Shown here piece by piece: positions 23,397 to 49,373 of a stretch of 49,874 nt of DNA (position 1 is the first letter of the stretch; each line of letters begins with the position of its first letter). This DNA is from an uncultured Bacteroidales bacterium (GTDB lineage: Bacteria > Bacteroidota > Bacteroidia > Bacteroidales > UBA932). The position numbers were made by a program, and so were the translations under genes. Under the pieces are notes generated by a model that had not been told where the DNA came from, did no database searches, and was given only the letters and a program-made list of their open reading frames with translations. The stretch is from the NCBI GenBank assembly GCA_946625485.1, contig CAMOTB010000004.1, forward strand, positions 1 through 49,874, in the 5' to 3' direction.

Positions 23397-25505
23397 ATGA
23401 AAGATTATTCCACCAAAGACATCCGCAACGTGGTTCTTCTGGGCAGCACCAAATCCGGAAAGACCACACTCGCTGAAGCGATGCTGTACGAAGGCAAGGT
23501 CATCGACCGCCGCGGCACCGTCGAGGACAAGAACACCGTTTCCGACAACGATGAGCTCGAGAAACTGAACCAGCGCTCCATCTATGCGACTCCGCTGTAT
23601 GCCGAGTTCCAGGGCACAAAGATCAATTTCATCGACGCTCCGGGCTCTGACGATTTCATCGGCGGTGCCTACTCCGCTTTCCGCGTCTGCGAGAGCGGCA
23701 TCCTCGTGATCAACGCCCAGCAGGGTGTCGAGGTCGGCACGGAAAACTTCGTCCGTCGCGCTGAGGAGAACAAGCTCCCTCTGGTGATCGCGGTCAACCA
23801 GCTCGACACCGACAAGGCCGACTGGGACAACATCCAGGCTTCGATGAAGGAAGCGCTCGGCGGCAAGCTGGTCTATGTCCAGTTCCCCACCGCCACCGGC
23901 GCCAGCTTCGACGGTATCGTGGATGTCCTGACGATGAAGTACTATCATTTCAAGGATGCCAACGGCACTTGCGAGGTGCTCGACATCCCCGCCGCATTCG
24001 CCGACCAGGCCGAAGAAGCCCGCAATGAGCTGATCGAGAAGGCTGCCGAATTTGACGATGCGCTGATGGAAAAGTTCTTCGAGGAAGGCACGCTTTCCGA
24101 GGAGGAGATCATGAGCGGCCTCAACCAGGGCGTCACCTCCGGCCAGGCCTATCCCGTCTTCTGCATCTCCGCCAAGAAAGACATCGGTGTCAAGCGTCTC
24201 CTCGAGTTCATCAAGGGTGTCGCCCCGGCCCCGAAGGTGGACGAGAATGGCCAGCCCGCCCTCTTCATCTACAAGAATGATGTCGAGCAGCACCTCGGTG
24301 AGGTTTCCTACTTCAAGGTCATGAGCGGCACGATCACCCCTGGTCTCGACCTCGAGGACCCCGCTACCGGCAACAAGGAGCGTTTCTCCGCCATCTACGC
24401 CGTAGCCGGCTCCAAGAAGGAGAGCGTCCCCGCCCTCAAGGCCGGTGACTTCGGCTGCGTCGTCAAGCTCAAGAACGGCAAGTCCAGCACCACCCTGTCC
24501 GCGATCGGTTCCGGTATCGAGTATCCGAAGATCGCCTACCCGGCTCCGAAGTACCGCTGCGCCATCAAGGCCAAGGTCCAGCAGGAAGAGCAGAAACTCG
24601 GCGACGCCCTCAAGAAGATCGCGTCCCAGGATCCCACCACGATCGTGGAATACTCCAAGGAGCTCCGTCAGACCATCCTCAGCGGCAACGGCGAGCAGCA
24701 CATCAACGTCACCAAGTGGCGCCTCAACAACGAGTTCAACGTCGAAGTCGAACTCTTCGCCCCGAAGGTCCCGTACCGCGAGACCATCACCAAGGTCGCC
24801 CAGGCCCAGTACCGTCACAAGAAGCAGTCCGGCGGCGCCGGCCAGTTCGGTGAGGTCCACCTCCTCGTCTGCCCGGCCGAAGGCGAGCTCAACACCAAGT
24901 TCAAGATCGACGGCAAGGACACCCAGCTCAACATCAAGACCCAGGACATCACGGAACTGGAGTGGGGCGGCAAGCTCGAGTTCTACAACTGCGTCGTCGG
25001 TGGTGCGATCGACCTCGGCTTCATGCCCGCCATCTTGAAGGGTATCAAGGAACGTATGGTCGAAGGTCCTCTGACCGGTTCCTACGCCCGTGACATCCGC
25101 GTCTTCGTCTATGACGGTAAGATGCACCCGGTGGACTCCAAGGAAATCGCGTTCATCATCGCCGGCCGTAACGCCTTCCGTGAGGCCTTCCGCAACGCCG
25201 GTCCGAAGATCCTCGAGCCGATCTACAACGTCGAGGTCATGACCCCGGCCGAGTACCAGGGAGCCGTCATGTCTGACCTCCAGAACCGCCGCGGTATCCT
25301 CGGCGACCTGGGTGCCGACAAGGGCTTCTCCATCCTCCGTGCCCGCGTCCCGCTCGCAGAGCTGTACCGCTACTCCACCACCCTGAGCTCGCTGACCTCC
25401 GGTTCCGCGACCTTCACCATGGAGTTTGCCGACTACCAGCCCGTCCCGGGAGACGTCCAGACCAAGCTCCTCGCGGACTACGCCGCCCAGGAAGAAGAGG
25501 ACTAG
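23397..25505 (+). CDS. EF-G paralog, EF-G2 type (probably GTPase-deficient)
   Basis: The product has 702 residues with the full EF-G domain order: G domain (1-270), domain II, and domains III-V (VPYRETITKVAQAQYRHKKQ and GSYARDIRVFVYDG). The P loop is intact (GSTKSGKTT). Switch residues differ from housekeeping EF-G: the usual DTPGHVDF is DAPGSDDF, with Ser84 in place of the catalytic His; RGITI is replaced by QRSIYAT; and NKxD is NQLD. These losses fit the EF-G2 paralog of Bacteroides, reported to support translocation without GTP hydrolysis and to aid gut colonisation. Codon use is strongly biased to C/G-ending codons, suggesting high expression. It is a single-gene unit ending in the double-hairpin element. 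Confidence 0.9.
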   Translation: MKDYSTKDIRNVVLLGSTKSGKTTLAEAMLYEGKVIDRRGTVEDKNTVSDNDELEKLNQRSIYATPLYAEFQGTKINFIDAPGSDDFIGGAYSAFRVCESGILVINAQQGVEVGTENFVRRAEENKLPLVIAVNQLDTDKADWDNIQASMKEALGGKLVYVQFPTATGASFDGIVDVLTMKYYHFKDANGTCEVLDIPAAFADQAEEARNELIEKAAEFDDALMEKFFEEGTLSEEEIMSGLNQGVTSGQAYPVFCISAKKDIGVKRLLEFIKGVAPAPKVDENGQPALFIYKNDVEQHLGEVSYFKVMSGTITPGLDLEDPATGNKERFSAIYAVAGSKKESVPALKAGDFGCVVKLKNGKSSTTLSAIGSGIEYPKIAYPAPKYRCAIKAKVQQEEQKLGDALKKIASQDPTTIVEYSKELRQTILSGNGEQHINVTKWRLNNEFNVEVELFAPKVPYRETITKVAQAQYRHKKQSGGAGQFGEVHLLVCPAEGELNTKFKIDGKDTQLNIKTQDITELEWGGKLEFYNCVVGGAIDLGFMPAILKGIKERMVEGPLTGSYARDIRVFVYDGKMHPVDSKEIAFIIAGRNAFREAFRNAGPKILEPIYNVEVMTPAEYQGAVMSDLQNRRGILGDLGADKGFSILRARVPLAELYRYSTTLSSLTSGSATFTMEFADYQPVPGDVQTKLLADYAAQEEED

Positions 25506-25538
25506 TCCGACCGAACGCCCCTGTGGCGAGATTCAAAA

Positions 25539-25625
25539 TGCGCCCAATGGAACGAAAAGATGTCCATTGGGCGCATTTTTGGGCTTTTTTGCTCCCAATG
25601 GCACCATTTTCTTTCCATTGGGAAC
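25539..25625 (+). repeat. Double-hairpin intergenic element, copy A
   Basis: Arms TGCGCCCAATGG/CCATTGGGCGCA enclose a 13-nt spacer. A 15-nt linker with T runs follows, then GCTCCCAATGG/CCATTGGGAAC around another 13-nt spacer, with one arm mismatch. It lies 33 bases after the EF-G2 stop in a convergent gap. Hairpin 1 plus the T run could end transcription from the plus strand. It shares size and layout with four other copies in the window. Confidence 0.85.
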
Positions 25626-25650
25626 ACCCGGCAAGGAATCTGGCTGCCGG

Positions 25651-25724
25651 CAAGGCAAGGCCGGTGCGGCGTCACTCAGCCGCAGCGCAGCGAGGATGGA
25701 CGTAGCCGCACCGGCCTTGCTTTG
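25651..25724. terminator. Long GC-rich hairpin between EF-G2 and aspS
   Basis: CAAGGCAAGGCCGGTGCGGC (25651-25670) pairs with GCCGCACCGGCCTTGCTTTG (25705-25724) at 19 of 20 positions around a 34-base loop. It starts six bases after the aspS stop, so it is placed to end or protect the aspS transcript. There is no T run on the aspS side, so a classical intrinsic terminator is not certain. Confidence 0.55.
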
Positions 25725-25730
25725 TCGGTC

Positions 25731-27503
25731 TTATTCCGCGGCTGGGGCCGTCGAAGCGATGCAGAGCTCCTGCATCTGGGTCTCGTCGATCAGGGACGGG
25801 GAGTCGATCATGACGTCGCGGCCCTGGTTGTTCTTCGGGAACGCAATGTAGTCGCGGATCGTCTCCTGGCCGCCGAAGAGGGCGCAGACGCGGTCGAAGC
25901 CGAACGCCAGGCCGCCGTGAGGCGGAGCGCCGAACTTGAAGGCATTGATGATGAAGCCGAACTTGTATTCCGCTTCCTCCTTGCCGATGCCCAGCACCTC
26001 AAACATGCGGCTCTGCATGTCGGCGTTGTGGATACGGATCGAGCCGCCGCCGAGCTCCGTGCCATTCAGGACGAAATCATAGGCATTGGCGCAGACACGC
26101 TCCAGATCCTCTTTCTTGTCCGAATAGAACCAGGCCTCGTGCTCCGGCTTCGGCGCCGTGAAGGGGTGGTGCATCGCATAGAAACGCTGATCCTCCTCGC
26201 TCCACTCGAGCAGCGGGAAGTCCACGATCCACAGCGGCGCAAAGACCTTCGGGTCGCGATAGCCCAGACGGTTGCCGAGCTCGATACGCAGCACGCCGAG
26301 CTGGGTCTGGGTCTTACGCTTCTCGCCGCACAGGACCAGGATCAGGTCGCCCTTCTTGGCTTCCATCGCCTCAGCGACAGCCGCCAGATCTTCCGGCGTA
26401 AAGAACTTATCCACAGAGGATTTCAGGGAACCGTCCTCATTGACCCGGATATAGACCAGGCCCTTGGCGCCCACCTGCGGACGCTTGACCCATTCGGTCA
26501 GCTCGTCCAGCTGCTTGCGCGTGTAGGAGGCCAGGCCGTCGGCGCAGATTGCACCTACGTACGGCACGCTGTCGAACACGCCGAAGCCATGGCCCTGGGC
26601 CAGGGAAGTAATCTCGTGGATCTTCATGCCGAAACGGATGTCCGGTTTGTCGGATCCGTAGTAATCCATTGCATCGTACCAGCTCATCCGCGGCAGCGGG
26701 TTGGGAATATCGACGCCCACCGCGTTCTTGAACATCTGGCGCATCATGCCCTCGAACATGTTCAGGACATCTTCCTGCTCGACGAAGGACATCTCGCAGT
26801 CGATCTGCGTGAATTCCGGCTGGCGGTCGGCCCGCAGGTCTTCGTCGCGGAAGCAGCGCACGATCTGGAAATAGCGGTCGTATCCGGCGACCATCAGCAA
26901 CTGCTTGAAGGTCTGGGGGCTCTGCGGCAGGGCGTAGAACTGGCCCGGGTTCATGCGGGAAGGCACGACGAAGTCGCGGGCGCCTTCCGGCGTAGATTTG
27001 ATCAGGTAAGGGGTCTCAATCTCCATGAAACCCTGCTGGTCCAGGTAGGTGCGTACCTCCTGGGCGAGACGGTGACGCAGCGCCAGGGCGCGCTGGAGGG
27101 GCGGCCGGCGCAAATCGAGATAGCGGTACTTGGCGCGGATATCCTCACCACCGTCGCTGTTCTCCTCGATGGTGAAGGGCGGGGTGACGGATTTGTTGAG
27201 AATGCGGATGGCATCCAACTTGATCTCGACGTCGCCGGTGGGCATTTTGGCATTCTTGCTCTGCCGCTCGACGACGGTTCCCGTGACCTGAAGGACGAAT
27301 TCGCGGCCGAGGGAGGCCGCCGTCTCGACCAGGGCCGGATCGGCATCCGCTTCCACGACCAGTTGCGTGATACCATAGCGGTCGCGCAGGTCAATAAAGG
27401 TCATGCCGCCGAGTTTACGGGCCCGCTGGACCCAGCCGGCGAGGGTGACTTTCTCCCCGGCATTGCTGATGCGGAGCTCTCCGCAAGTGTGTGTCCTGTA
27501 CAT
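25731..27503 (-). CDS. aspS: Aspartyl-tRNA synthetase, bacterial type
   Basis: The enzyme has 590 residues, typical of bacterial AspRS with the GAD insertion. The N-terminal OB fold ([20 protein letters not shown]) reads the anticodon. Class II features include [13 protein letters not shown] and [20 protein letters not shown] (motif 2). [15 protein letters not shown] is motif 3, with the ATP-binding Arg. The GAD domain spans roughly 290-420. It charges tRNA-Asp in the cytosol. It has its own promoter, 42 bases after the SGNH esterase gene. Confidence 0.97.
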
Positions 27504-27524
27504 AGTCTAATCTTGAAAGGAGTG

Positions 27525-27532
27525 CAAAAATA
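27525..27532 (-). promoter_or_regulatory. -7 box of aspS
   Basis: TATTTTTG on the minus strand fits TAnnTTTG and lies 21 bases before the aspS ATG. A clear -33 element was not found. Confidence 0.45.
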
Positions 27533-27545
27533 CGAAAAATCCCCG

Positions 27546-28700
27546 TTAGTTGGTCGTTTTCATCGTTTTTGATGTGCGCCAGACCTCCATGATTTTCTTT
27601 TCGAAAGCGCTGGAGAGGAAACGCATCCCGTAATCGTTGGGATGCACACCCTCGATCATCCCGTCCATCGGCATGCCTAACTCGTCGTGAGACAGGTAAT
27701 AGATCTCCGGTTCGCCCCGTTTTTTCAGGGTCTCGTAAGCGCTTCGGACCTGCGCATTCGCCTGCCGGTAAGCTTCTTTGGCCTTGCTGGCAATTTCGCC
27801 GGTATTGCCGGCATGCTCCGCGATCAGGATGGGGCAGTCGCTGCGGCTGCGCAAGATGCGGACCGCTTCCAGCAGGCGCGGCTCGATGTCCGTAGCCCGC
27901 GTCAGATTGGCGGTGCAATCCAGGACATACAGGGACGCGTCGATCTCGGAGAGCAGCGTCAGCACTTCCGGGTCCAGCTTCCCGTTTCCGGAGAAACCGA
28001 GGTTGACGACCGGAAGCCGGAGTTCGCGCTCGACGATCGTGGTCCAGGCATTGCCCGGCCGCGAAACGCAACCGCCCTGGGTGATGCTGGTGCCGTAGAT
28101 GACCACCGGATGCTTCCGCGTCTCCGGGATGAAACGGATCTGCGCGTCGCCCGGAATGCCGATCTTGAGCCAGGTGACGGTGTTGTAGGGCGGCAGGTAG
28201 AGATGGTACTCGTAGCTGCGGGCGCCTTCCGGATAGTAACTGATTCCGCTGTAAATATAGCGGGTCGTGTCGTTGCTGACCTTGGCGGGGAAGTCGGGCG
28301 CCACCCAGCGCAAGCGCCCTTCGGCATCTGTCGCATAGAGATCCACGCCCGAGCGCCCGGTCGAGGGCATGTGGAACATGTTGAGGCCGTCCTTGAGGCC
28401 GTAAAGCACGATGATTTCGGGCGCATCCGATTCGAAGACCAGGCTCAGGCCCGCCGCATTGAGGCTCAGGTCCCAGACCTGGTCCCGCACGACGCCGTGC
28501 GCCCGCTCCGGCAGCCGCACGTAGCCCCCCTTCAACTCGTCCCAACCTACGCCGTGCACGACGGGGCCCTCATCCAGGGGATCCACCCATTTGAACGGGG
28601 CGAGGGCTTGTTGGGGCTGAGCCCAGACTTGTGTCAAGGAGGCCAGCATGCCGGCAAAGAGCAGGGCGGCAAGGGCCGGAAGGAAGAAGATCTTTTTCAT
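27546..28700 (-). CDS. Secreted SGNH/GDSL esterase with N-terminal GxDLY domain
   Basis: The protein has 384 residues with a signal peptide (LPALAALLFAGMLASL). A beta-sandwich N-terminal domain (about 40-185) contains GRSGVDLYA, the GxDLY motif. The SGNH hydrolase domain has block I VIYGTSITQGG with the nucleophile Ser, a Gly/Asn oxyanion pair (NLGFSGNG and a later Asn), and EGVHPNDYGM with the catalytic Asp and His. Such enzymes deacetylate carbohydrates in the periplasm, but no substrate is visible. It stands alone between a double-hairpin element and aspS, with its promoter box five bases before the ATG. Confidence 0.88.
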   Translation of the reverse strand: MKKIFFLPALAALLFAGMLASLTQVWAQPQQALAPFKWVDPLDEGPVVHGVGWDELKGGYVRLPERAHGVVRDQVWDLSLNAAGLSLVFESDAPEIIVLYGLKDGLNMFHMPSTGRSGVDLYATDAEGRLRWVAPDFPAKVSNDTTRYIYSGISYYPEGARSYEYHLYLPPYNTVTWLKIGIPGDAQIRFIPETRKHPVVIYGTSITQGGCVSRPGNAWTTIVERELRLPVVNLGFSGNGKLDPEVLTLLSEIDASLYVLDCTANLTRATDIEPRLLEAVRILRSRSDCPILIAEHAGNTGEIASKAKEAYRQANAQVRSAYETLKKRGEPEIYYLSHDELGMPMDGMIEGVHPNDYGMRFLSSAFEKKIMEVWRTSKTMKTTN

Positions 28701-28705
28701 ATCCT

Positions 28706-28713
28706 CAAAGATA
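28706..28713 (-). promoter_or_regulatory. -7 box of the SGNH esterase gene, five bases from the ATG
   Basis: TATCTTTG on the minus strand is an exact TAnnTTTG match, followed by AGGAT and the ATG. Transcription would begin at or near the start codon, so a leaderless mRNA is possible. The same octamer precedes mutS and the Na/Pi transporter gene. Confidence 0.5.
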
Positions 28714-28751
28714 CAAAAAAATGTTCACGACCGAAAAGACCGTCTCTCCAC

Positions 28752-28839
28752 TGCTGCCGATGGCGCAAAAAAAGTTCCATCGGCAGCAAAAAAGCCTAAA
28801 AATGCTGCCGATAGCGCGGATTTTGCGCCATCGGCAGCA
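28752..28839 (-). repeat. Double-hairpin intergenic element, copy E (variant stems)
   Basis: The 12-nt arms are TGCTGCCGATGG/CCATCGGCAGCA and TGCTGCCGATAG/CCATCGGCAGCA, each pair around a 13-nt spacer. The linker read on the minus strand (TTTTTAGGCTTTTTT) is nearly that of copies A-C. The stems differ from the other copies at several positions, yet both sides change together and still pair. It follows the stop of the 148-residue gene at 28872. Confidence 0.85.
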
Positions 28840-28871
28840 CCTTATCTTATTGAACCCGCTGGGCGAAGCGA

Positions 28872-29318
28872 TCAGAATTGGAGAGCAACGCCGTTGGGAC
28901 CGTAGCGCAGAATCAAATGGTCATTGATCTTGCGCTGGCTGTTGACCATCTTGAACTCATTGACTATCATCCAGATGCCGCCGGTTAAGAAAGCAAGCTC
29001 TCCCGCGACAATACCCACGGTTGCCGCAACGGGGACATCGACCATCTCAACATCTCCTCGGGAATTATACTGAAAGGTGGCTCCGGCAACACCAAGAACG
29101 CCGCTCGTTACACAAACGCCCAAGCCGGACAGCGTGACAATCATGGCCGTCTTGCGGTTTTTCAACAAATGATTCTGATAGCTCAACAGGTCGGCATATT
29201 GGGTGTTGAGAGCGGTGACTTCCGCAGACCGGTTCATACCGCGACCCGGAGCAATCTGCGCGTTGGACAATACGGCCGACGCCACCAGGGCGACCAGGGC
29301 CAATAATACTTTTTTCAT
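28872..29318 (-). CDS. Small exported or membrane protein, unknown function
   Basis: The product has 148 residues. The N-terminus is a signal peptide (LLALVALVASAVLSNAQ). A polar segment with coiled-coil character follows (VTALNTQYADLLSYQNHLLKN), then two hydrophobic helices (MIVTLSGLGVCVTSGVLGVA and AATVGIVAGELAFLTGGIWM). I do not recognise a catalytic motif. It begins 13 bases after the GH97 stop and is probably the last gene of the mutS-GH97 unit. Confidence 0.75.
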   Translation of the reverse strand: MKKVLLALVALVASAVLSNAQIAPGRGMNRSAEVTALNTQYADLLSYQNHLLKNRKTAMIVTLSGLGVCVTSGVLGVAGATFQYNSRGDVEMVDVPVAATVGIVAGELAFLTGGIWMIVNEFKMVNSQRKINDHLILRYGPNGVALQF

Positions 29319-29331
29319 AACTCAGAAAGGT

Positions 29332-31323
29332 TTATTGTTTGACGATCTTGGCGACCCAGCCGCCGCCGGGGGCCATGTGGAGTTTGAGGCGGTCGCCGGG
29401 AACGACGGTGGTTTCCTCCTTGGCATAGTCGCGGGCAGCCCGGTGGGCGTTGGCGCCATCCTTGAAGATTTCGACGCTGTAGCGACCGGCGGGCAGGAAG
29501 CCCAGCTCGACCGTCATGTCGCGCTCGTTCCAGTCGGTCATCGAGCCGACATACCAGGTGTCACCCTTGCGGCGCGCCATCGTGATGAACTCGCCGATCT
29601 TTCCGTTCAGCACCAGGGTCTCATCCCAAACCGTCGGGATCTCGGCGATGTATTTCGTGCACTCGGGCTCCTGCAGGTAGTTGGACGGGGAGTCGCAGAG
29701 CATCGTGAACGGGGCGTCGAAAATGACGTATTCTGCCAGCTGGCGGCAGCGGGTGCCGGGACTCATGGGCTCGCTGTTGACGGCGCGGTAGTTGCGAAGG
29801 GTCGCATTGCGCATCGCGCCCTGCGTGTAGTCGAGCGGGCCGGCCAGCATGCGCAGGAAGGGGATGGAGACATCGTAGATCACCTGCTGTTTGCCATCCT
29901 GCAACCACTTCATCTGCTCCAAGCCGTGTACGCCCTCGAAGTTGATGACATTGGGATAGGTGCGGTGCAGGCCCGTCGGCTTGTAGGCACCATGGAAATC
30001 GATCATCATCTTGTACTTGGCACCCATCTTGGCGCAGGCGGTATAGAAGTTGACCATATCCTGGTCGTCACGGTCCATGAAATCGATCTTGAAGCCCTTG
30101 ACACCCATGCGGGAGAAATGCAGGAAGACATTCTCCATGTCGCGGTTGACCGCCCAGTAGCCGGCCCAGAGGATCAGACCCACGTTCTTTTCCTTGGCGT
30201 ATGCGCAGAGCTCCTCGAGGTCGATCTCCGGCACGACCTGCATCAGGTCGGCCTGTTTGTTGACTGCCCATCCTTCGTCCAGGATGACGTACTCGATGCC
30301 CTTCTCGGAAGCGAAATCGATGTAGTATTTGTAGGTGTCGTTGTTGATCCCCGCCTCGAAATCAACCCCGTAGATGTTCCAGTCGTTCCACCAGTCCCAG
30401 GCGACCTTGCCGGGCTTGACCCAGCTCCAGTCGCGGGCCTCGGGCGCCGTGGAGAGTTTGTACACCATATCGCTGCAGGCCAGTTCCTTGTCCTCACGGG
30501 CGATCTGGATCACGCGCCAAGGGAAGGCGCAGCCGGGCACGCAGTCCTTGGCGATGAAGTCCTCGCTGCTGAGGATCACGCCCTGGAGCATGTTGTGGCC
30601 GCCCTGCTTGACCAGTTTCGGGACAGGAGCATGGAAGCCTTCGATGGTCTTGGAGCCATTCAGGTTGCGGACGTTGAGGCCCGGGAAATTGAACAGGTCC
30701 GCCTCGGTGATCGCGACCTTGTAGCCGTTGGGGGCGCCGACGACCAGGGGAAGGAAGGCGGCCCGGGTCTTATCCCAGTCCTGCAGCTTGAAGTTGTAGT
30801 AGATATTCTCGAAAGAGCACTGGATCTGCTTTTCGATCGGCCGGTCCGACTCGCGGCAATAGGGCACGACGGCGTCCCAGTTGCCGGGGAAGGTGAACTC
30901 CGCCTGCTCGGACTGCACGTCCACCCGCTTCTCGCTGCGGGAGACGAAGCGGTAGGCGACGCCCTCGTTGTAGGCGCGGAACACCAGGTCGAAAGCCTTG
31001 TAGCGCAGCGTCAGCTCGTTGTAACGGTCGCGCACGGAAGCCTTTTTGTAGATCGGCGTATCGAAGGTCTTGTCGTAGCTCTTGCGGATCGCCTTGACCA
31101 GCGACGCATTGCCGCCATAGACGGTCCCGTCGGTCAGGGTCATCGAGATCGCCGAGGGGGCGAGCATCTGGACACCGTCCGCCGTGACGGAATATTTGAA
31201 CTTGTCGATCGTGACGGCGATGCGTCCGTCGGGAGACTTCAAGGTCTGCGGCTTCGGCTTGGCCGCAAAAGCGCTGAACGCACAGAGGCAGAGCAGCAGG
31301 GAGAGAAGCACGTGTTTTTTCAT
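29332..31323 (-). CDS. GH97-family glycoside hydrolase
   Basis: The enzyme has 663 residues from the ATG at 31323; the track starts 30 bases earlier within the mutS end. The chosen start gives a signal peptide (LLSLLLCLCAFSAFA). The N-terminal super-sandwich (about 25-280) contains LKSPDGRIAVTI. The (beta/alpha)8 barrel contains WDWWNDWNIYGVDF, YVILDEGW and GFKIDFMDRDDQ. The C-terminal domain ends in LKLHMAPGGGWVAKIV. GH97 enzymes are periplasmic alpha-glucosidases (inverting) or alpha-galactosidases (retaining). The Asp in KIDFMDRDDQ suggests the retaining group, which uses an Asp nucleophile there. Substrate assignment is tentative. It lies 19 bases after mutS. Confidence 0.92.
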   Translation of the reverse strand: MKKHVLLSLLLCLCAFSAFAAKPKPQTLKSPDGRIAVTIDKFKYSVTADGVQMLAPSAISMTLTDGTVYGGNASLVKAIRKSYDKTFDTPIYKKASVRDRYNELTLRYKAFDLVFRAYNEGVAYRFVSRSEKRVDVQSEQAEFTFPGNWDAVVPYCRESDRPIEKQIQCSFENIYYNFKLQDWDKTRAAFLPLVVGAPNGYKVAITEADLFNFPGLNVRNLNGSKTIEGFHAPVPKLVKQGGHNMLQGVILSSEDFIAKDCVPGCAFPWRVIQIAREDKELACSDMVYKLSTAPEARDWSWVKPGKVAWDWWNDWNIYGVDFEAGINNDTYKYYIDFASEKGIEYVILDEGWAVNKQADLMQVVPEIDLEELCAYAKEKNVGLILWAGYWAVNRDMENVFLHFSRMGVKGFKIDFMDRDDQDMVNFYTACAKMGAKYKMMIDFHGAYKPTGLHRTYPNVINFEGVHGLEQMKWLQDGKQQVIYDVSIPFLRMLAGPLDYTQGAMRNATLRNYRAVNSEPMSPGTRCRQLAEYVIFDAPFTMLCDSPSNYLQEPECTKYIAEIPTVWDETLVLNGKIGEFITMARRKGDTWYVGSMTDWNERDMTVELGFLPAGRYSVEIFKDGANAHRAARDYAKEETTVVPGDRLKLHMAPGGGWVAKIVKQ

Positions 31324-31342
31324 TATGCTGTAAGTTAATGGT

Positions 31343-33967
31343 TTATATTCCAAGTTCTGCCTTCATGCTCCGCAGCAGGTCGAAGGCCTGGAGCGGGGTC
31401 ATGTTGTTGAGGTCGGCCCCTTTGAGCTGGTCGCGCAGCGATTCCAGCGTCGGGTCGTCCAGCTGGAAGAAAGACAGCTGCACGGCACCGTCGTCCTCGA
31501 CCGTACCGAGTTTGGTGGTCTGCTGCGCCCGGGCGATGACATTCTCCCCGGCCTCGAGGGCCTTGAGGGTCTTTTCCGCGGAAGCGATGACCTCGCGGGG
31601 CATGCCGGCGAGCCGTGCCACATGGATGCCGAAGCTGTGCGCCACGCCTCCCTCCTTGAGCTTGCGCAGGAAGATCACGTCCTTGCCGGACTCCTTGACC
31701 GCGATGTGGAAGTTCTTGACGCGCGGATAAATGCCCTCCAGGTCGTTGAGCTCGTGGTAGTGGGTCGCGAAGAGGGTCTTGGCCCCCTTACCGTGCTCAT
31801 GGAGGTACTCAACCAGGGCGCGGGCGATGGACATGCCGTCGTAGGTGGAGGTGCCGCGGCCGATCTCATCCAGCAGGACCAGCGAACGCGCGGAGAGGTT
31901 GTGCATGATCATCGAGGTCTCCAGCATCTCGACCATGAAGGTGGATTCGCCGCGGGAGATGTTGTCGGACGCTCCGACACGGGTGAAAATCTTGTCGAAC
32001 CAGCCGATCCGGGCGCTGGACGCCGGGACGAAGGAACCGATCTGGGCCATCAGCACGATCAGGGCCGTCTGCCGCAGGAGGGCCGATTTACCCGCCATGT
32101 TGGGACCGGTCAGGATGATGATCTGCTGCTGTTCCGAGTCGAGGTAGACGTCGTTGGGGACATAATCTTCGCCGGCGGGCATCATCTTTTCGATCACCGG
32201 ATGCCGCCCGGCCCGGATGTCCAGCACCAGGCTGTCATCCATCTGGGGACGGCAATAGTGGCTGTCGGCGGCCAATTCGGCGAAGCCGGCAAGCACGTCC
32301 AGACGGGCGAGAATCTGGCAATTGGCCTGGATCTCACGGATGTGGCGCTGGATCTCGGCGACCAGTTCGCCGTAGAGCCGGCTCTCCAGCTCGTAGATGC
32401 GTCCTTCCGCGGAGAGGATCTTTTCTTCGTATTGCTTGAGCTCTTCGGTAATGTAGCGCTCCGCGCCGACGAGGGTCTGCTTGCGCACCCATTCCGGCGG
32501 GACCTTGTCCTTGAAGGTGTTGCGCACCTCCAGGTAGTAGCCGAAGACGTTGTTGTAGCTGATCTTGAGGGAGGAAATGCCGGTGCGCTCGATCTCGCGC
32601 TGCTGCATCTCCAGCAGGTAATCCTTGCCGCCGCGGGAGATGGAGCGGTATTCGTCGAGCTCGGCGCTGACGCCGGAGGCGATGATGTCGCCCTTGCCCA
32701 GGGCGGCCGCCGGATTCTCGGCCATCGTGGTGCGGATGCGCTCCAGCAGGGGTCCGCAGCCGTGCAGGGCACCCATCATCCGGTCTAATTCCGCGACGCC
32801 CTTGCCCTGGCAGAGGGCACTGATCGGCTCCATCTGGGCAAGCGAACGCCCGAGCTGCATCACCTCGCGGGGCAGGATCTTGCCTGCCGCGGCGCGGGAA
32901 ATGATGCGCTCCAGGTCGCCGACGTCGCCGAGATGCTCCTGCAGCCGGAGCAGGTCCTCGGGGGCCTCGACGAAGTGCTGGACCACGTCGTAGCGGGCAT
33001 TCAGCTCCTGCAGGTCGAGGACCGGCATCGCCAGCCAGGACCGGAGCTCCCGGGCGCCCATCGGAGAGGAACAGCGGTCGACCACGTCCACGAGCGCCGT
33101 GCCTTCACCGCCCGCCGCGGACTGGAAGACTTCCAGGTTGCGGAAGGTGAAACGGTCCATCCAGACGTACTTGCTCCCGTCCACGCGGGAGATCGAGCAG
33201 ATGTTGCCCAGGCCCGCATGCTGCGTCTGCTCCAGATAGACGAGCAGGGCTCCGGCCGCGCAGATTCCCAGCGGGCAGCTGTCGATGGCGAAGCCTTTCA
33301 GGGAACGCACGGCCAGCTGCTGCTTCAACTTTTCGACGGCGGCCTCTTTGACGAAGGCCCATTCGTCGAGGGTGCTGATATAGGCGTCGGTGCGGATGCG
33401 TTCTTTCACGATGCGGGCCGCGCTGCGGGTGACGACCAGCTCCTTCGGCGCGAAGGAGGAAAGCAGCGACGCAACATAGTCGATGCTGCCTTGGGCGACC
33501 TTGAAGGTGCCGGTGGACACGTCCAGGAAGGCCGCGCCGCAGGTTTCTCCGTTGAAATGGAGGCCGGCGAGGAAATTATTTTCTTTCTGGGAGAGCATCT
33601 GTTCGCCGAAAGCGACGCCGGGCGTCACGATCTCGGTGATGCCGCGCTTGACGATGTTCTTGGTGAGCTTGGGGTCTTCGAGCTGGTCGCAGATGGCGAC
33701 CTTGTAGCCGGCGCGGACGAGCTTGGGCAGATACACGTCGATGGCATGGTAGGGGACGCCGGCCATCGGGATGGAGTCGGCCATCGCGCTGGAGCGGCGG
33801 GTCAGCACGATGCCGAGCACCTTGCTGGCGGTAACGGCGTCGTCGCCGTAGGTTTCGTAGAAATCTCCGCAACGGAAGAGCAGGACGGCCTCGGGGCACT
33901 GGGCCTTGAGGCTGAAGTACTGCTTCATCATCGGGGTCATCGGATCTTTTTCCTTCGTCTTTGCCAT
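31343..33967 (-). CDS. mutS: DNA mismatch repair protein MutS
   Basis: The protein has 874 residues from the ATG at 33967 (MAKTKEKDPMTPMM); the track start seven codons earlier would fall within the promoter box. The mismatch-recognition domain has the Phe-x-Glu signature in FRCGDFYETYGDDA. The connector, lever and clamp domains follow. The ATPase domain shows GPNMAGKSALLRQ (Walker A) and LVLLDEIGRGTSTYDG (Walker B and signature). It binds mismatches as a dimer and starts repair with MutL. It diverges from ksgA, with 79 bases between the starts. Confidence 0.97.
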   Translation of the reverse strand: MAKTKEKDPMTPMMKQYFSLKAQCPEAVLLFRCGDFYETYGDDAVTASKVLGIVLTRRSSAMADSIPMAGVPYHAIDVYLPKLVRAGYKVAICDQLEDPKLTKNIVKRGITEIVTPGVAFGEQMLSQKENNFLAGLHFNGETCGAAFLDVSTGTFKVAQGSIDYVASLLSSFAPKELVVTRSAARIVKERIRTDAYISTLDEWAFVKEAAVEKLKQQLAVRSLKGFAIDSCPLGICAAGALLVYLEQTQHAGLGNICSISRVDGSKYVWMDRFTFRNLEVFQSAAGGEGTALVDVVDRCSSPMGARELRSWLAMPVLDLQELNARYDVVQHFVEAPEDLLRLQEHLGDVGDLERIISRAAAGKILPREVMQLGRSLAQMEPISALCQGKGVAELDRMMGALHGCGPLLERIRTTMAENPAAALGKGDIIASGVSAELDEYRSISRGGKDYLLEMQQREIERTGISSLKISYNNVFGYYLEVRNTFKDKVPPEWVRKQTLVGAERYITEELKQYEEKILSAEGRIYELESRLYGELVAEIQRHIREIQANCQILARLDVLAGFAELAADSHYCRPQMDDSLVLDIRAGRHPVIEKMMPAGEDYVPNDVYLDSEQQQIIILTGPNMAGKSALLRQTALIVLMAQIGSFVPASSARIGWFDKIFTRVGASDNISRGESTFMVEMLETSMIMHNLSARSLVLLDEIGRGTSTYDGMSIARALVEYLHEHGKGAKTLFATHYHELNDLEGIYPRVKNFHIAVKESGKDVIFLRKLKEGGVAHSFGIHVARLAGMPREVIASAEKTLKALEAGENVIARAQQTTKLGTVEDDGAVQLSFFQLDDPTLESLRDQLKGADLNNMTPLQAFDLLRSMKAELGI

Positions 33968-33985
33968 CTTTTCTCTCTTATCCTT

Positions 33986-34006
33986 CAAAGATAATCATTA
34001 TTTTTG
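33986..34006. promoter_or_regulatory. Divergent mutS and ksgA -7 boxes
   Basis: On the minus strand TATCTTTG (33986-33993) lies 18 bases before the mutS ATG. On the plus strand TATTTTTG (33999-34006) lies 40 bases before the ksgA ATG. Both fit TAnnTTTG. They are five bases apart, so the two polymerases would compete for the same DNA. Confidence 0.55.
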
Positions 34007-34046
34007 TGCGGTGCGACACTTTGCCGCGTCTGCAAGATTCTATTTT

Positions 34047-34820
34047 ATGGAAGTTAGAGCCAAGAAAGCCCTCGGGCAGCATTTCCTGACGGACCAGGGC
34101 GTGGCCCGGTCGATCGTGGCGGCCCTGTCCGCCGATTCTCCGGTACGGGATGTACTGGAGATCGGGCCGGGGATGGGCGTATTGACGCAGTATCTGATCG
34201 GGCGGGAGGATATCGACGCCCGGATGATCGAGATCGACTCCGAGTCGGTATCGTATCTGCTGACGCATTTCCCGGGAATGGAGGGGCGTTTGATGGAGGG
34301 GGACTACCTGAGGCTGGACATGTCCCGGGTCTTTCCGGGGCCGTACCGGGTGATCGGCAATTTCCCCTACAACATTTCCTCGCAGATTTTCTTCAAGATC
34401 CTGGAGGACAAGGACCGGGTGCCGGAGGTGGTCTGCATGATCCAGAAAGAGGTGGCGGACCGCATCGCCGAAAAGCCCGGATCCAAGGTGTACGGGATCC
34501 TGTCCGTGCTGCTGCAGGCCTGGTATGACATCGAATATGTGCTTTCGGTGGGGCCCGGCGCCTTCGTCCCGCCGCCCAAGGTCCATTCGGCGGTGATCCG
34601 CCTGCGCCGCAACGCGCGGACTTCGCTGGGCTGCGACGAGAAGTTGTTCAAGCAGGTCGTCAAAACGGCCTTCAACCAGCGGCGCAAGACGCTTCGGAAC
34701 GCACTGAAGCCGTTGCTGCCGGAAGGCCTGGACACCTCCGACCCGATCTTCGACCTCCGCGCCGAGCGCCTCAGCGTCGAAGACTTCATCCGCCTCACCC
34801 AGATGCTCGAAATCCATTGA
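34047..34820 (+). CDS. rsmA: 16S rRNA dimethyladenosine transferase (KsgA/RsmA)
   Basis: The enzyme has 257 residues from the ATG at 34047 (MEVRAKKALGQHFLTDQG). The track ORF extends 47 codons upstream through the promoter and into mutS, which is not credible. The SAM-binding motif I is VLEIGPGMGVLTQYL and the catalytic motif IV is NFPYNISSQIF. The C-terminal domain has KTAFNQRRKTLRNAL. It dimethylates two adenosines near the 3' end of 16S rRNA during 30S maturation. It ends five bases before double-hairpin copy B. Confidence 0.97.
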   Translation: MEVRAKKALGQHFLTDQGVARSIVAALSADSPVRDVLEIGPGMGVLTQYLIGREDIDARMIEIDSESVSYLLTHFPGMEGRLMEGDYLRLDMSRVFPGPYRVIGNFPYNISSQIFFKILEDKDRVPEVVCMIQKEVADRIAEKPGSKVYGILSVLLQAWYDIEYVLSVGPGAFVPPPKVHSAVIRLRRNARTSLGCDEKLFKQVVKTAFNQRRKTLRNALKPLLPEGLDTSDPIFDLRAERLSVEDFIRLTQMLEIH

Positions 34821-34825
34821 AGCAG

Positions 34826-34912
34826 TGCGCCCAATGGAAAGATTTTAGTTCCATTGGGCGCATTTTAGGCCTTTTTTGCTCCCAATGGCATCATTTTCTT
34901 TCCATTGGGAGC
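34826..34912 (+). repeat. Double-hairpin intergenic element, copy B
   Basis: TGCGCCCAATGG/CCATTGGGCGCA encloses AAAGATTTTAGTT. The linker is TTTTAGGCCTTTTTT, then GCTCCCAATGG/CCATTGGGAGC encloses CATCATTTTCTTT. All arms pair perfectly, so this is the clearest copy. It fills the convergent gap between ksgA and the BspA-like gene and could end transcription of ksgA. Confidence 0.88.
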
Positions 34913-34930
34913 AGTTCGGGCAAACAAACG

Positions 34931-37900
34931 TCAGACTCCGAGCTGCCGGAGTTGCTCATCCACCTGCGCAATCTGCACCTGCATATCCTGGATCTGATAC
35001 CGAATATTGGTAAGTTGCTCCTGCGTCGTAGCCGCCAGTAGCGCCTGACTTACTACGTTGAGCACCTGAGCCAGTTCGTCAATCTGTTCGGCCAGCCTGG
35101 CCTTCTGCTCACTCGAGGGAAGCTGTTGCAGCCTTTGCGTGAGATACACCACCATCTTCTGGCACTCCATCAACTCGTTCTCCAGCGCCGTCCTCATCTC
35201 CGACAGATCCGCCTGGATCCGGGTCGCATAGCTACTCCAGCCGCTCGTCGTTTTATAAGTGTTAACGCTGGCCTCTGGGACGAAGATCGGGCAGTCATTC
35301 GTACTGTCAAAGGCAGACGTGCCCAATTCGGGCGGGTTGGCAACCAAGCAGCTAATCTGAGTCAAACTAGAACAATTCATAAAAGCACGCCGTCCTATTT
35401 CTCTCAGCGTAGAAGGCAGAGAGAGCCGAGTCATGCCTGTCGTATGAAAAGCTTGTGCGCCAATGGAAGTAATTCCCTCCGGGAGCCGGATATCGGTTAG
35501 TGTGCGGATTCCCGTGAAAGATGAGGCGCTGACCGTGGTAACCGTTGCCGGTATTGTCGTCTTTTTACACCCGGCCCGCAAATCATTCGTTGCCGTCTCA
35601 ATCACGGCATTACAGCCATCCCGAGAATCAAACACGGTGTTCTCTGAAGAAACGACAATCGTCTCCAAAGAAGTACATTCAGACGTTGATCCCCAACCGA
35701 AAGCCGAAACACCCGCGGGAATCCGAAGCTCGGTCAAACTGGAGCAGCCACCGAACGTAATGGAACCTATCTCCGTTACTTTCCCGGGAATACTGATACT
35801 CAAAAGAGTCTTGCATTTGTAAAATGCGTAATACCCCAAACTCTTTACGTCTCCGTCAAAGGAAATAACTCCCTTGCCATCCTTATATTCATTGGAAACT
35901 ATCTTCGCGCCGAAACAGGTCTCTTCATCAATGTTGCCAAGTGTATATTGCGGCGTCACCACCTGACCGTCCGTGGAGGTGTACCAGATCTCATTGTCGG
36001 GCTGGGTATCGGACCCGAGCGCTTGGATCCGGTCGGCATAGTCGCTCCAATACGGCGCCGCCTTATAGGCCTCCACACTCCCTGCCGGGACGTAGATCAA
36101 GCAAGACGTCTGATAGAAAATCCTGCTGGCCGCGGTGGGAGGCACAGTGGCAAGACAAATGATTTTTTGCAGGTCGGGGCAAGAATAGAACGCCATTGAG
36201 CCAATAGACGTCACGCTCTCAGGAATCGTTAATGTTTTAAGGCCGCTGCATTCCGAGAAAGCATTTTGACCAATTGCTGACACTGATTCCGGGATCGTAG
36301 AAACAGGACACCCTGAGATTAAAGTATTGGTGGCAGTTTCAATGATTGCATTACAATTGTCCCGGGAATCATAGACCGGATTCTCCGAAGATACAATAAC
36401 GGAATGTAAGACTGGACAGGCAGATAATACATTCACCTCGATTTTATTTGTGCTTGCCGGAATGGTTATGCTTGTCAAATCCGGACAGTTGCCGAAAGCG
36501 GCGCCCCCAAGCTCTGTTACGCCGTTCGGGAGATCAACAGTATATAAGCCGGAGCAGCCCGAAAACGCGACTGCAGCTATCTTGGTCACGGACGTCGGGA
36601 TTGTTGTGTTTACACAACCGCGGATAAGTGAATTTGTCGACGTCTGGATAATTGCATTGCAGCCCTCTCGGGAATCAAAGAACGGATTATCCTCTGAAAC
36701 GACAATGCTCGTAAGCATAGAACAATTTTGAAACGCGGTAGATGAAATATTATTAACCTGTGGCGGGATCGTAATACTTTTCAAACCGCTGCCAGAGAAT
36801 GAAGATCCACCAATGGTCGTAAGCGAGTTGGGAAAGACGATCTGGGATAAACTTGTACAGTTATGAAAGGTTGATGACTGAATCTCTGTCTGTCCTTCCG
36901 GAATCTTAATTTCAATCAAATCTCTGCAACCGGTAAAGCTATAAGACAGAATTCTGTCAACCGTCTTTGGGAGTAAAACCGTTTTCAAACGCAGGTTTGA
37001 CCAAAAAGCCCCTCTACACCTGGTCACAGGACCATCGAAGGTAATGACACCTTTCCCTCCTACATATTCATTGGAAACAATGTGGGCACCGAAAGCAGCG
37101 TCTTCTGAAATTTGGAATGCGCTGTAGCCGGGAACAATCACTTCCCCATCCGTCGTCGTATACCAGATCTCATTGTCGGGCTGGGAGCCTTCGATGCGGG
37201 GGGCGTATTCGCCCCAGGCGGCGGTGTAGGCGTCCGTGGTGCCGGCGGGGACGATGATCGGACAGTTGTTCGTGTCGGCGAAGGCATCTGGGCCGATTGT
37301 CGGCGGAGTCGGGGCCAGGACGATGATCGTCTGCAGGTTCGTGCAACCCTTGAAGGCGTTGGCACCGATTTCCGTGGTGTTCTCCGGGATTGTGACGGAG
37401 GTCAGCGCCGTGCAGCCCTCAAAAGTGCCGGCTTCGATCTTCGTCACGCCCGTGAAGTACTGGATTTCGTCGAAAGAGGTGATTCCCGTGCCGGCGAAGA
37501 CGCTGACCTGCTCCCCTTCGGCACGCGTGAGCGCCTCGTCCACGAAGAAGGAACGCACGGCGGCCGCTTCCTTGTAGGACAGTTCGCCGTCCTTGCCCGT
37601 GTCGAAGTAACGCACCACGATCTCCTTGACCTTGGCATCTTTGAAACGGATGTTCTCGTCCGTATCGGGGATGAAACTGGCGCCCTCGTCCGCATCCCGG
37701 ACTTCACCGAAGATGCTCCGCTTGACGGTCACGGCCTTGGAGAATGTCTTCTTGGCGACGGTCGTTCCCTTATAGAACGTCAGCGTGAAGCCCTTCTCCA
37801 GGGCCCCGGGAAGCGCGACGATATAGTACCAGACCCCCGTTTCCAGCGTCGTGCCCTCCGGGGCGGACAGGGTCACGGACGTGCTGCCCTCGCTGACCTC

Positions 37901-38485
37901 CTGCACCACCGGACGCTCGTCTTGGAAGGCGACCTTAACCTTGCCGGCCAGGGTCTCGCCGTTCAGGCCTTCGAAGACGACCTTGGTGATTCCTTCCTGC
38001 GTCAGCGTGAAGCACAGACCGCCGCCCACATTGTAGAACTGCAGGCTGGGGCTCGTCGTGCGGGCTACCGAGAGATTCTTGCCTTTCGCGAACGACTGGG
38101 CACGGGCGACCTGCACGGCCGGAAATTCAACGGCCAGCGTCTCCCCGTCCAGGACGGCACCCTCGGAGAAAGGATACACCGCCCACAGGGGCGAGCCCTC
38201 GGTCCAGGCGCCATCCAGCGAGCCCGTAAAGTCAGCCGTCGCGGCCGGGCTCGTCAGGTCCGTGACAAAACGGGCCGATTTCGTCCCGGCGAACACCTTG
38301 ATCTCGTCTCCTTTCTCCCACCAGACCTGAGAGTCTCCCGCAATGAGGGTCCGGGTGCCAACGGGCTGCTCCACCGACGCCGTCAGGGTAAGCGCCGTAG
38401 TCTTCATGAAATCCTTTTCCTGGAGATCCTGGCAGGCACTCAAGGACAGGGCAAGGCCCGCAAGGGCTGCAATATACTTTTTCAT
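34931..38485 (-). CDS. BspA-like LRR surface lipoprotein with fimbrillin-like N-terminus
   Basis: The protein has 1184 residues from the ATG at 38485, which gives a lipoprotein signal (LALSLSAC, Cys18); the track starts 126 bases upstream inside the small leader ORF. Residues 25-275 resemble a fimbrillin-like domain (VWWEKGDEIKVFAG, WAVYPFSEG). A 12-residue EF-hand-like loop, DTGKDGELSYKE, lies near 295. Leucine-rich repeats of the BspA type fill about 330-1080 (TKIEAGTFEGCTALTSVTIP). They are interrupted by two copies of an EIWYT(T/S)TDG(E/Q)V module. The last 90 residues form a coiled coil (QLPSSEQKARLAEQIDEL). It is probably surface-exposed, in binding or adhesion; the ligand is unknown. 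Confidence 0.85.
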   Translation of the reverse strand: MKKYIAALAGLALSLSACQDLQEKDFMKTTALTLTASVEQPVGTRTLIAGDSQVWWEKGDEIKVFAGTKSARFVTDLTSPAATADFTGSLDGAWTEGSPLWAVYPFSEGAVLDGETLAVEFPAVQVARAQSFAKGKNLSVARTTSPSLQFYNVGGGLCFTLTQEGITKVVFEGLNGETLAGKVKVAFQDERPVVQEVSEGSTSVTLSAPEGTTLETGVWYYIVALPGALEKGFTLTFYKGTTVAKKTFSKAVTVKRSIFGEVRDADEGASFIPDTDENIRFKDAKVKEIVVRYFDTGKDGELSYKEAAAVRSFFVDEALTRAEGEQVSVFAGTGITSFDEIQYFTGVTKIEAGTFEGCTALTSVTIPENTTEIGANAFKGCTNLQTIIVLAPTPPTIGPDAFADTNNCPIIVPAGTTDAYTAAWGEYAPRIEGSQPDNEIWYTTTDGEVIVPGYSAFQISEDAAFGAHIVSNEYVGGKGVITFDGPVTRCRGAFWSNLRLKTVLLPKTVDRILSYSFTGCRDLIEIKIPEGQTEIQSSTFHNCTSLSQIVFPNSLTTIGGSSFSGSGLKSITIPPQVNNISSTAFQNCSMLTSIVVSEDNPFFDSREGCNAIIQTSTNSLIRGCVNTTIPTSVTKIAAVAFSGCSGLYTVDLPNGVTELGGAAFGNCPDLTSITIPASTNKIEVNVLSACPVLHSVIVSSENPVYDSRDNCNAIIETATNTLISGCPVSTIPESVSAIGQNAFSECSGLKTLTIPESVTSIGSMAFYSCPDLQKIICLATVPPTAASRIFYQTSCLIYVPAGSVEAYKAAPYWSDYADRIQALGSDTQPDNEIWYTSTDGQVVTPQYTLGNIDEETCFGAKIVSNEYKDGKGVISFDGDVKSLGYYAFYKCKTLLSISIPGKVTEIGSITFGGCSSLTELRIPAGVSAFGWGSTSECTSLETIVVSSENTVFDSRDGCNAVIETATNDLRAGCKKTTIPATVTTVSASSFTGIRTLTDIRLPEGITSIGAQAFHTTGMTRLSLPSTLREIGRRAFMNCSSLTQISCLVANPPELGTSAFDSTNDCPIFVPEASVNTYKTTSGWSSYATRIQADLSEMRTALENELMECQKMVVYLTQRLQQLPSSEQKARLAEQIDELAQVLNVVSQALLAATTQEQLTNIRYQIQDMQVQIAQVDEQLRQLGV
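35982..36006. repeat. 25-bp direct repeat inside the BspA-like gene (copy 1; copy 2 at 37161-37185)
   Basis: The 25-base sequence starting TACCAGATCTCATTGTCGGG occurs identically 1179 bases apart, encoding the start of the repeated EIWYT module. It indicates duplication of a block of about 390 codons and could allow recombination within the gene. Confidence 0.75.
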
Positions 38486-38504
38486 CTCTGGGTCCTCCGC
38501 TATT

Positions 38505-38654
38505 TTAGTTCCAGTTTTCGAATCCAATCCCTTCGTTGCCGCCCGGCAGGGGGCTTTCGCAAAGGACTGCTTCAACTTCAAACGGAAGAAGGCACGCCCG
38601 CGGAGAAACATATTCCCGCTCCGCAGAGCAAGAAGACAGGAGTTCTTTTTTCAT
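38505..38654 (-). CDS. Small leader-type protein upstream of the BspA-like lipoprotein
   Basis: The product has 49 residues if it starts at MKKELLSSCSAEREY; the track ORF of 62 residues starts within the promoter region. It ends PLPGGNEGIGFENWN. Short proteins with a VSPRACLLPFEVEAVLCES-like core are often seen before secreted fimbrillin or BspA genes in Bacteroidales. The function is not known to me. It has no true signal peptide. The stop is 19 bases before the lipoprotein ATG, so the genes are co-transcribed. Confidence 0.65.
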   Translation of the reverse strand: MKKELLSSCSAEREYVSPRACLLPFEVEAVLCESPLPGGNEGIGFENWN

Positions 38655-38671
38655 AGCATTCATCATTTTTA

Positions 38672-38703
38672 CAAATGTCTGAATTATTTCCATTTAGTAC
38701 AAA
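38672..38703 (-). promoter_or_regulatory. Promoter of the BspA leader unit
   Basis: On the minus strand TTTG (38700-38703), 20 bases, then GACATTTG (38672-38679) matches the -33/-7 pattern with one mismatch in the -7 box. It lies 17 bases before the leader ATG at 38654. Confidence 0.55.
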
Positions 38704-38727
38704 TTTCTACGTGCATATCTATGCGAC

Positions 38728-38814
38728 TGCGCCCAATGGAAAGATTTTAGTTCCATTGGGCGCATTTTAGGCCTTTTTTGCTCCCAATGGCATCTTTTTC
38801 TTTCCATTGGGCGC
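38728..38814 (+). repeat. Double-hairpin intergenic element, copy C
   Basis: The first hairpin and linker equal copy B base for base (spacer AAAGATTTTAGTT, linker TTTTAGGCCTTTTTT). The second arm pair is GCTCCCAATGG/CCATTGGGCGC with one mismatch. It lies nine bases past the stop of the second NSS transporter gene and before the BspA promoter. The T runs face away from the transporter transcript, which argues against a simple terminator role. Confidence 0.85.
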
Positions 38815-38823
38815 AGGGGGGAA

Positions 38824-49285: not shown

Positions 49286-49373
49286 TGCGCCCAATGGAAG
49301 ATTTTCCGTGCCATTGGGCGCAAAAAACGTCAAAATTGCGCCCAATGGACCGTTTTTCAAGCCATTGGGCGCA
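49286..49373 (-). repeat. Double-hairpin intergenic element, copy D
   Basis: Two TGCGCCCAATGG/CCATTGGGCGCA pairs, all perfect, each enclose 13 nt (AAGATTTTCCGTG and ACCGTTTTTCAAG). Read on the minus strand the linker is ATTTTGACGTTTTTT, like that of the other copies, so it is in the opposite orientation. It fills the convergent gap between the barrel gene and the 93-residue gene. Confidence 0.88.

Follow-up and report, generated by a model that had tools for sequence, protein, structure and literature searches.

Twin-hairpin elements of two arm types and their probable cognate Y1 transposases in an uncultured Bacteroidales genome

Layout of copy E and its neighbours

How can four arms, distributed over two separate hairpins, come to change together in one copy of a repeat? 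This question is raised by copy E (28752-28839), one of five twin-hairpin elements of about 88 bp within a stretch of 49,874 nucleotides from an uncultured Bacteroidales bacterium (hereafter the window), which is contig C4 of a 1.83-Mb draft genome that is 55% complete. Each element comprises a 37-nt hairpin, a 14-nt linker and a second 37-nt hairpin, each hairpin having 12-bp arms and a 13-nt loop, and a geometry scan of the window returned exactly these five elements, A to E, and no more. Our analysis points, with a probability of roughly 0.85, to non-autonomous REPIN-like mobile elements that belong to sister families, each arm type having its own cognate transposase.

Copy E is complete at 88 bp and carries the T2 (TGCTGCCGATGG) arm type; being dyad-symmetric, its strand is arbitrary, and the covariance model gives it 87 bits on either strand. 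Hairpin 1 (28752-28788, plus strand) has fully complementary arms (28752-28763 and 28777-28788) around a loop at 28764-28776, and is followed by the linker (28789-28802, 14 nt), an approximate fit to the family linker WWWWnGGCCnWWWW, and by hairpin 2 (28803-28839, plus strand), with arms at 28803-28814 and 28828-28839 and a loop at 28815-28827. The initial annotation of this locus had proposed that both stems of copy E depart from copies A-D in the same way. The paired nature of the difference is borne out, but the third arm (TGCTGCCGATAG) carries an A at 28813 that creates an A.C mismatch (28813/28829), three of the four arms being perfect. Its statement that the linker is kept applies to the length and not to the sequence, which on the plus strand reads AAAAAGCCTAAAAA in copy E, the reverse complement of the version first given, and aaaaacgtcaaaat in copy D.

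Copies A-D share the T1 arm type (CCCAATGG), and the uniformity that had been attributed to their arms is not found: only copy D (49286-49373) has four identical arms, with TGCGCCCAATGG on each, whereas in copies A, B and C hairpin 2 has TGCTCCC in its left arm, so that these three mix TGCG and TGCT hairpins. Copy A (25539-25626), with TGCG in hairpin 1, TGCT in hairpin 2 and CCATTGGGAACA as its last arm, sits between an EF-G-like gene (23397-25505, plus strand) and an aspartyl-type tRNA synthetase gene (25731-27503, minus strand). Copy B (34826-34913) lies to the left of a BspA-type leucine-rich-repeat (LRR) gene (34931-38611, minus strand), and copy C (38728-38815), near-identical to B, in the same orientation and with a G/T arm mismatch in hairpin 2, completes the bracket around that gene. 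Copy E folds far better than its dinucleotide shuffles (z = -9.1); in isolation, both E and D adopt a single long hairpin. Rfam gave no match within the window.

The sites were compared with those of relatives. One of these (G156) is collinear with the window over 23120-48625, yet lacks A, E, B and C; the 148-aa ORF at 28872-29318 is missing along with copy E, and 61 bp stand in place of 34808-38823, containing neither element nor LRR gene. These absences are lineage differences and not clean empty sites: no precise empty site was found in relatives at A, E, B/C or the copies on contigs C11 and C55, every site differing by more than the element, and neither an excision product nor a target duplication was found. 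The 148-aa ORF, which adjoins copy E, has no Pfam match. Long intergenic inverted repeats of another kind, with arms of about 25-30 bp and a short loop, flank the copy on contig C25 (locus L029, 2759-2846), and the same kind occurs at the G156 site that matches C11 (L206).

Folding and arm covariation among genomic copies

A degenerate pattern, BLAST and a covariance model (R2) together identified at least 19 full copies of the T1/T2 type in the draft genome, a minimum given its incompleteness. Hairpins found by the pattern lie in doublets, so that the repeated unit is a pair of hairpins in inverted orientation. When 18 of the genomic copies are set against the two-hairpin structure, 97.0% of cells are paired and covariation is 0.229, against 0.100 in shuffles (0 of 500 shuffles reaching it). 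The alternative of a single long hairpin, in which arm 1 pairs with arm 4 and arm 2 with arm 3, was rejected: fewer cells are paired in it (93.8%) and covariation is lower (0.176), which indicates that the two-hairpin fold is the better maintained.

The three variable arm positions behave differently. Position 8 (A/G) is identical across all four arms in 18 of the 19 copies, the copy on contig C71 being the single mixed exception. At position 5 (C/G) the two hairpins are linked (0.74 versus 0.44 when shuffled, p = 0.00015), with frequent mismatches inside one hairpin, and position 4 (G/T) is paired within hairpins and free between them (p = 0.32). Taken jointly, positions 4, 5 and 8 are fully uniform in four copies (4/19). 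The expectation that clustering the genomic copies would always place four arms in one type is thus only partly borne out at the bases by which E-type and A-D-type arms are told apart, well at position 8 and less so at position 5. Random mixing of arm types, which the initial annotation had set against its own proposal, occurs at position 4 and at neither position 5 nor position 8. Intermediates are also present in the genome, both as position-5 mismatches and as CCC arms with G at position 8 (C38, C11, and half of C71 and of C104), and the latter blur the boundary between the two types.

Transposases and the elements beside them

Four RAYT/TnpA_REP-like transposases (Y1_Tnp genes) are encoded in the draft genome. 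T1 (contig C46, 291 aa) has an A-D-type element on a single side, a helicase gene intervening before the next copy, and T2 (contig C54) has E-type elements on both sides; T3 (contig C23) is flanked on both sides by elements of a third arm type (TGCTCCCAACGTCC), and T4 (contig C101), also on both sides, by looser elements of a fourth type. T2-T4 share 51-66% identity with T1, the T1/T2 pair being at 66%. One feature by which a RAYT is recognised, the presence of dispersed palindromic repeats of one family around the gene, is thus found here, and the arm-recognising factor with subtypes that had been suggested from copy E finds good support in T1 and T2, two related HUH/Y1 transposases, the first accompanied by A-D-type and the second by E-type elements. 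The same genome encodes a fifth and more distant homologue (L232, contig C42, 1932-2762; E 2.9e-35), whose locus yielded no twin-hairpin element, and a Y1 gene of a different and more distant type lies on contig C38 (L025), about 9 kb from the nearest element on that contig.

All four proteins match, weakly, both Y1_Tnp and the NCBIfam model for REP-associated tyrosine transposases. The latter (REP_Tyr_transpos) is their best family match, but at 26-37 bits it misses the 80-bit cut-off, which places T1-T4 on a distant branch. Y1_Tnp was recovered in all 50 homologues analysed (E<=0.1), and these share the HUH motif N54-H55-V56-H57, in which V is nearly invariant, and an invariant Y115. Searching the PDB by sequence gave no match. 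The predicted fold of T2 resembles that of E. coli TnpA_REP in complex with a REP hairpin: the model is confident (pLDDT 91.5), and its best PDB match is that complex, 4ER8 (E 7.8e-5). The C-terminal 80 or so residues are modelled with confidence as a four-helix domain; this domain resembles the helix-turn-helix domains of ParB and DnaA, its best structural matches being ParB and, lower down, DnaA DNA-binding domains, none at E<=0.001, and the Pfam helix-turn-helix families Bac_DnaA_C, HTH_23 and HTH_28 gave no match in it.

The association between transposases and elements extends across related genomes. We fetched 80 homologous loci, nearly all labelled as Bacteroidales or Bacteroidia MAGs and mostly from ruminant gut samples, of which 79, together with T1-T4, gave 83 usable loci (534 kb). 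A geometry scan of these loci detected 109 twin-hairpin elements, against none in block-shuffled (3-mer) sequence, and 84 of the 109 lie within 400 bp of a transposase. At least one element accompanies 57 of the 83 transposase genes, with elements on both sides of 24, and the scan detected none for the other 26. Linkers are of two kinds, WWWWnGGCCnWWWW with 14 nt and, with 15 nt, a G/C run between A/T flanks. As the first scan had demanded similarity between hairpins 1 and 2, it was repeated on geometry and self-complementarity alone; with hairpins chosen in this way, the two hairpins of one element differ in their arms by 0.8 of 12 positions, and those of different elements by 5.0. Upstream and downstream arms of the same gene show 1.9 differences in 12, compared with 5.9 between different genes, and the distances between arms rise with those between the proteins (Mantel r 0.24, 0 of 5000 permutations), a correlation that includes any effect of shared ancestry. 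Several twin-hairpin elements stand in series near the transposase at L091, L101, L104 and L107, at steps of about 104 bp or longer, and four near-identical elements with TGCGTATGGTCT arms lie within about 1.2 kb downstream of the transposase at L054.

The outer flanks of the elements show a base bias, with G at position -1 in 57% and T in 3%, and A at position -2 in 52-54%, and this bias may serve as a guide or reflect a preference for certain targets. Classical REPs carry a GT[AG]G foot, which is absent here, GTAG occurring in 4 of 204 outer flanks, and eight tests of flank complementarity across the element gave nothing convincing (lowest p 0.035).

With respect to distribution, the transposase type was found in 152 of 200 sampled congeners (E <= 1e-20) and, across the order, in one of 198 sampled genomes besides the window's own, which is again a congener (E <= 1e-25). 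R2-like elements were present in 47 of the 200 congeners, and some element-bearing genomes (e.g. G101) had no detected close transposase. Copy E was not found in the plasmid and phage collections searched. One close homologue (L061) lies on a 3.4-kb contig labelled Clostridia, from water buffalo rumen; the label is probably a binning error, transfer being the alternative.

These data bear on three other explanations. The first is that a single transposase of broad specificity mobilises both arm types, which would then be neutral lineages of one repeat family. Intermediate and mixed copies (C71, C104 and C3) are in keeping with this, as is congener G011, in which dispersed mixed CCC/CCT and A/G-arm copies occur beside several transposases; however, neither the elements adjoining T1 nor those adjoining T2 mix types at position 8, and upstream and downstream elements match each other across genes, and we regard this explanation as unlikely.

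Much less probable is the gene-conversion-like homogenisation put forward in the initial annotation, taken here as one hairpin of an element overwriting the other time after time, or one copy overwriting another, with four arms changing together as a result. The agreement of the arms at position 8 would fit, and the loops are slightly more alike within a copy than between copies (6.6 versus 7.9 mismatches in 13 positions, with C19 one base off register in this comparison). Yet the loops lie between the arms and are far from homogenised, whereas conversion of a 37-nt hairpin should bring its loop along; position 4, moreover, varies freely between hairpins while remaining paired within them. Since cognate transposases account for the types without conversion, this process is unneeded as well as weakly disfavoured.

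Least probable of all is that the elements act mainly as bidirectional transcription terminators or as signals for RNA processing, with arms that drift under a base-pairing constraint: hairpin 2 of copy E followed by TTTTTAGGCTTTTT on the minus strand is the strongest terminator-like site in 25400-39000, with annotatable genes on both sides on that strand, but sites in this interval are not clearly above shuffles (17 versus 12.5, sd 3.8), copies B and C are not called, and pairing alone would link neither the hairpins to each other at positions 5 and 8 nor the elements to transposase genes. A secondary, exapted terminator role is compatible with the mobile-element explanation.

Origin of the E arm type and relation to known systems

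We therefore return to sister families of mobile elements with cognate transposases. Each element, two hairpins in inverted orientation flanking an A/T-rich, GGC(C)-centred linker, would be bound and cleaved, its hairpins probably being read as single-stranded DNA, by a TnpA_REP-like HUH/Y1 transposase (RAYT) with a single gene at another place in the genome; TnpA_REP reads hairpins as single strands in vitro (PMC8266576). T1 would serve the A-D type and T2 the E type, and copy E would be a copy from the sister family rather than an A-D copy converted at its site.

The phylogeny of the transposases suggests when the E arms arose. T2 is sister (99/98 support) to L034 (G071 C3, the same element), to which it is 75% identical, and the arms of the L034 element are CCCAATGG, as are those of the elements of T1 and L035. 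Since all three share these arms, the E type is best understood as a derived state of the T2 branch. The arms of the E family would thus have changed together with T2 after its split from the lineage of its nearest relative, which retained A-D-type arms. A shift in enzyme specificity would select matched changes in both hairpins, and the second arm of each hairpin would then follow through base pairing. The two hairpins would change together because one transposase must bind both, and the change would be kept within a hairpin because of pairing. Leaving aside the unaligned first residue, thirteen residues are changed in T2 where L034, T1 and L035 share one identical residue, including positions 17, 66, 72, 80, 147 and 163; from the alignment, these are candidates only for the specificity change. 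For a comparison of T1, T2 and L034, we propose the arm sequences CCCAATGG, GCCGATGG and CCCGATGG.

A close parallel for the elements is found in the GI, GII and GIII REPINs of P. fluorescens SBW25, whose types differ by about two bases, whose doublets are with rare exceptions of a single type, and which lie, type by type, near their own RAYTs (Bertels & Rainey 2011, PMC3116915). Both systems have an inverted hairpin doublet as the unit, several types per genome and compensatory hairpin changes. Unlike the SBW25 REPINs, each half is here a 37-nt hairpin in a fixed 37-14/15-37 layout with a GGCC- or GGGG-centred A/T-rich linker, copies number in the tens and not the hundreds, and the transposase has about 290 aa. 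E. coli TnpA_REP (4ER8) shares the HUH motif, the conserved tyrosine and, as the best structural match, the fold of the T2 model, but identity is 13%, an extra C-terminal helical domain is present here, and the elements lack a GTAG foot.

By motifs and length, the transposase appears nearest to subclass 2.1 of TnpA_Y1 (TIRYT; Bertels group 1), with which it shares NHVH, S209-S210 after the catalytic core and a long C-terminal extension, whereas its Y motif is YVQMNxVAA in place of YI/VxLNP. The three helix-turn-helix families named above are those expected in the C-terminal domain of this subclass. Some TIRs of TIRYTs are double palindromes that form repeat families, and published searches reported no REP-like sequences beside subclass 2.1 genes (PMC3733652, PMC6006769). 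Subclass 2.6 (Bertels group 5), from Bacteroidetes, is characterised by atypical secondary structures, a median length of 179 aa, an HUH-to-Y distance of about 82 and the motif YIH[QN]NP (PMC6006769); it resembles our system in phylum, in flanking non-GTAG hairpins and in further copies in the genome. Membership of this subclass is excluded by the length of about 290 aa, the HUH-to-Y distance of 58-60 and the YVQMNxVAA motif.

In the searched open-access literature, the transposase branch, which apparently occurs in one genus only, and the element architecture both appear to be new, and we found no earlier description of these intergenic repeats of a common rumen lineage, for which an explanation is now offered. 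We give about even odds to the broader proposition that this is a separate RAYT branch, found here only in one large uncultured genus of gut Bacteroidales, with its own non-GTAG twin-hairpin elements and a recently retargeted T2 lineage, in which all four arms and about a dozen residues of the protein would have changed after its separation from a sister with the old arms. If true, the retargeting of T2 would be a natural experiment on how a hairpin-reading HUH enzyme switches specificity. In vitro work on how REP/REPIN elements and their RAYTs keep in step as each of them diverges has covered very few enzymes. The genus offers many natural transposase-hairpin pairs that combine a fixed 88-90-bp layout with many arm sequences, in which the reading of the arms, and what may be a recent change of specificity (T2 versus L034/T1), would be directly testable.
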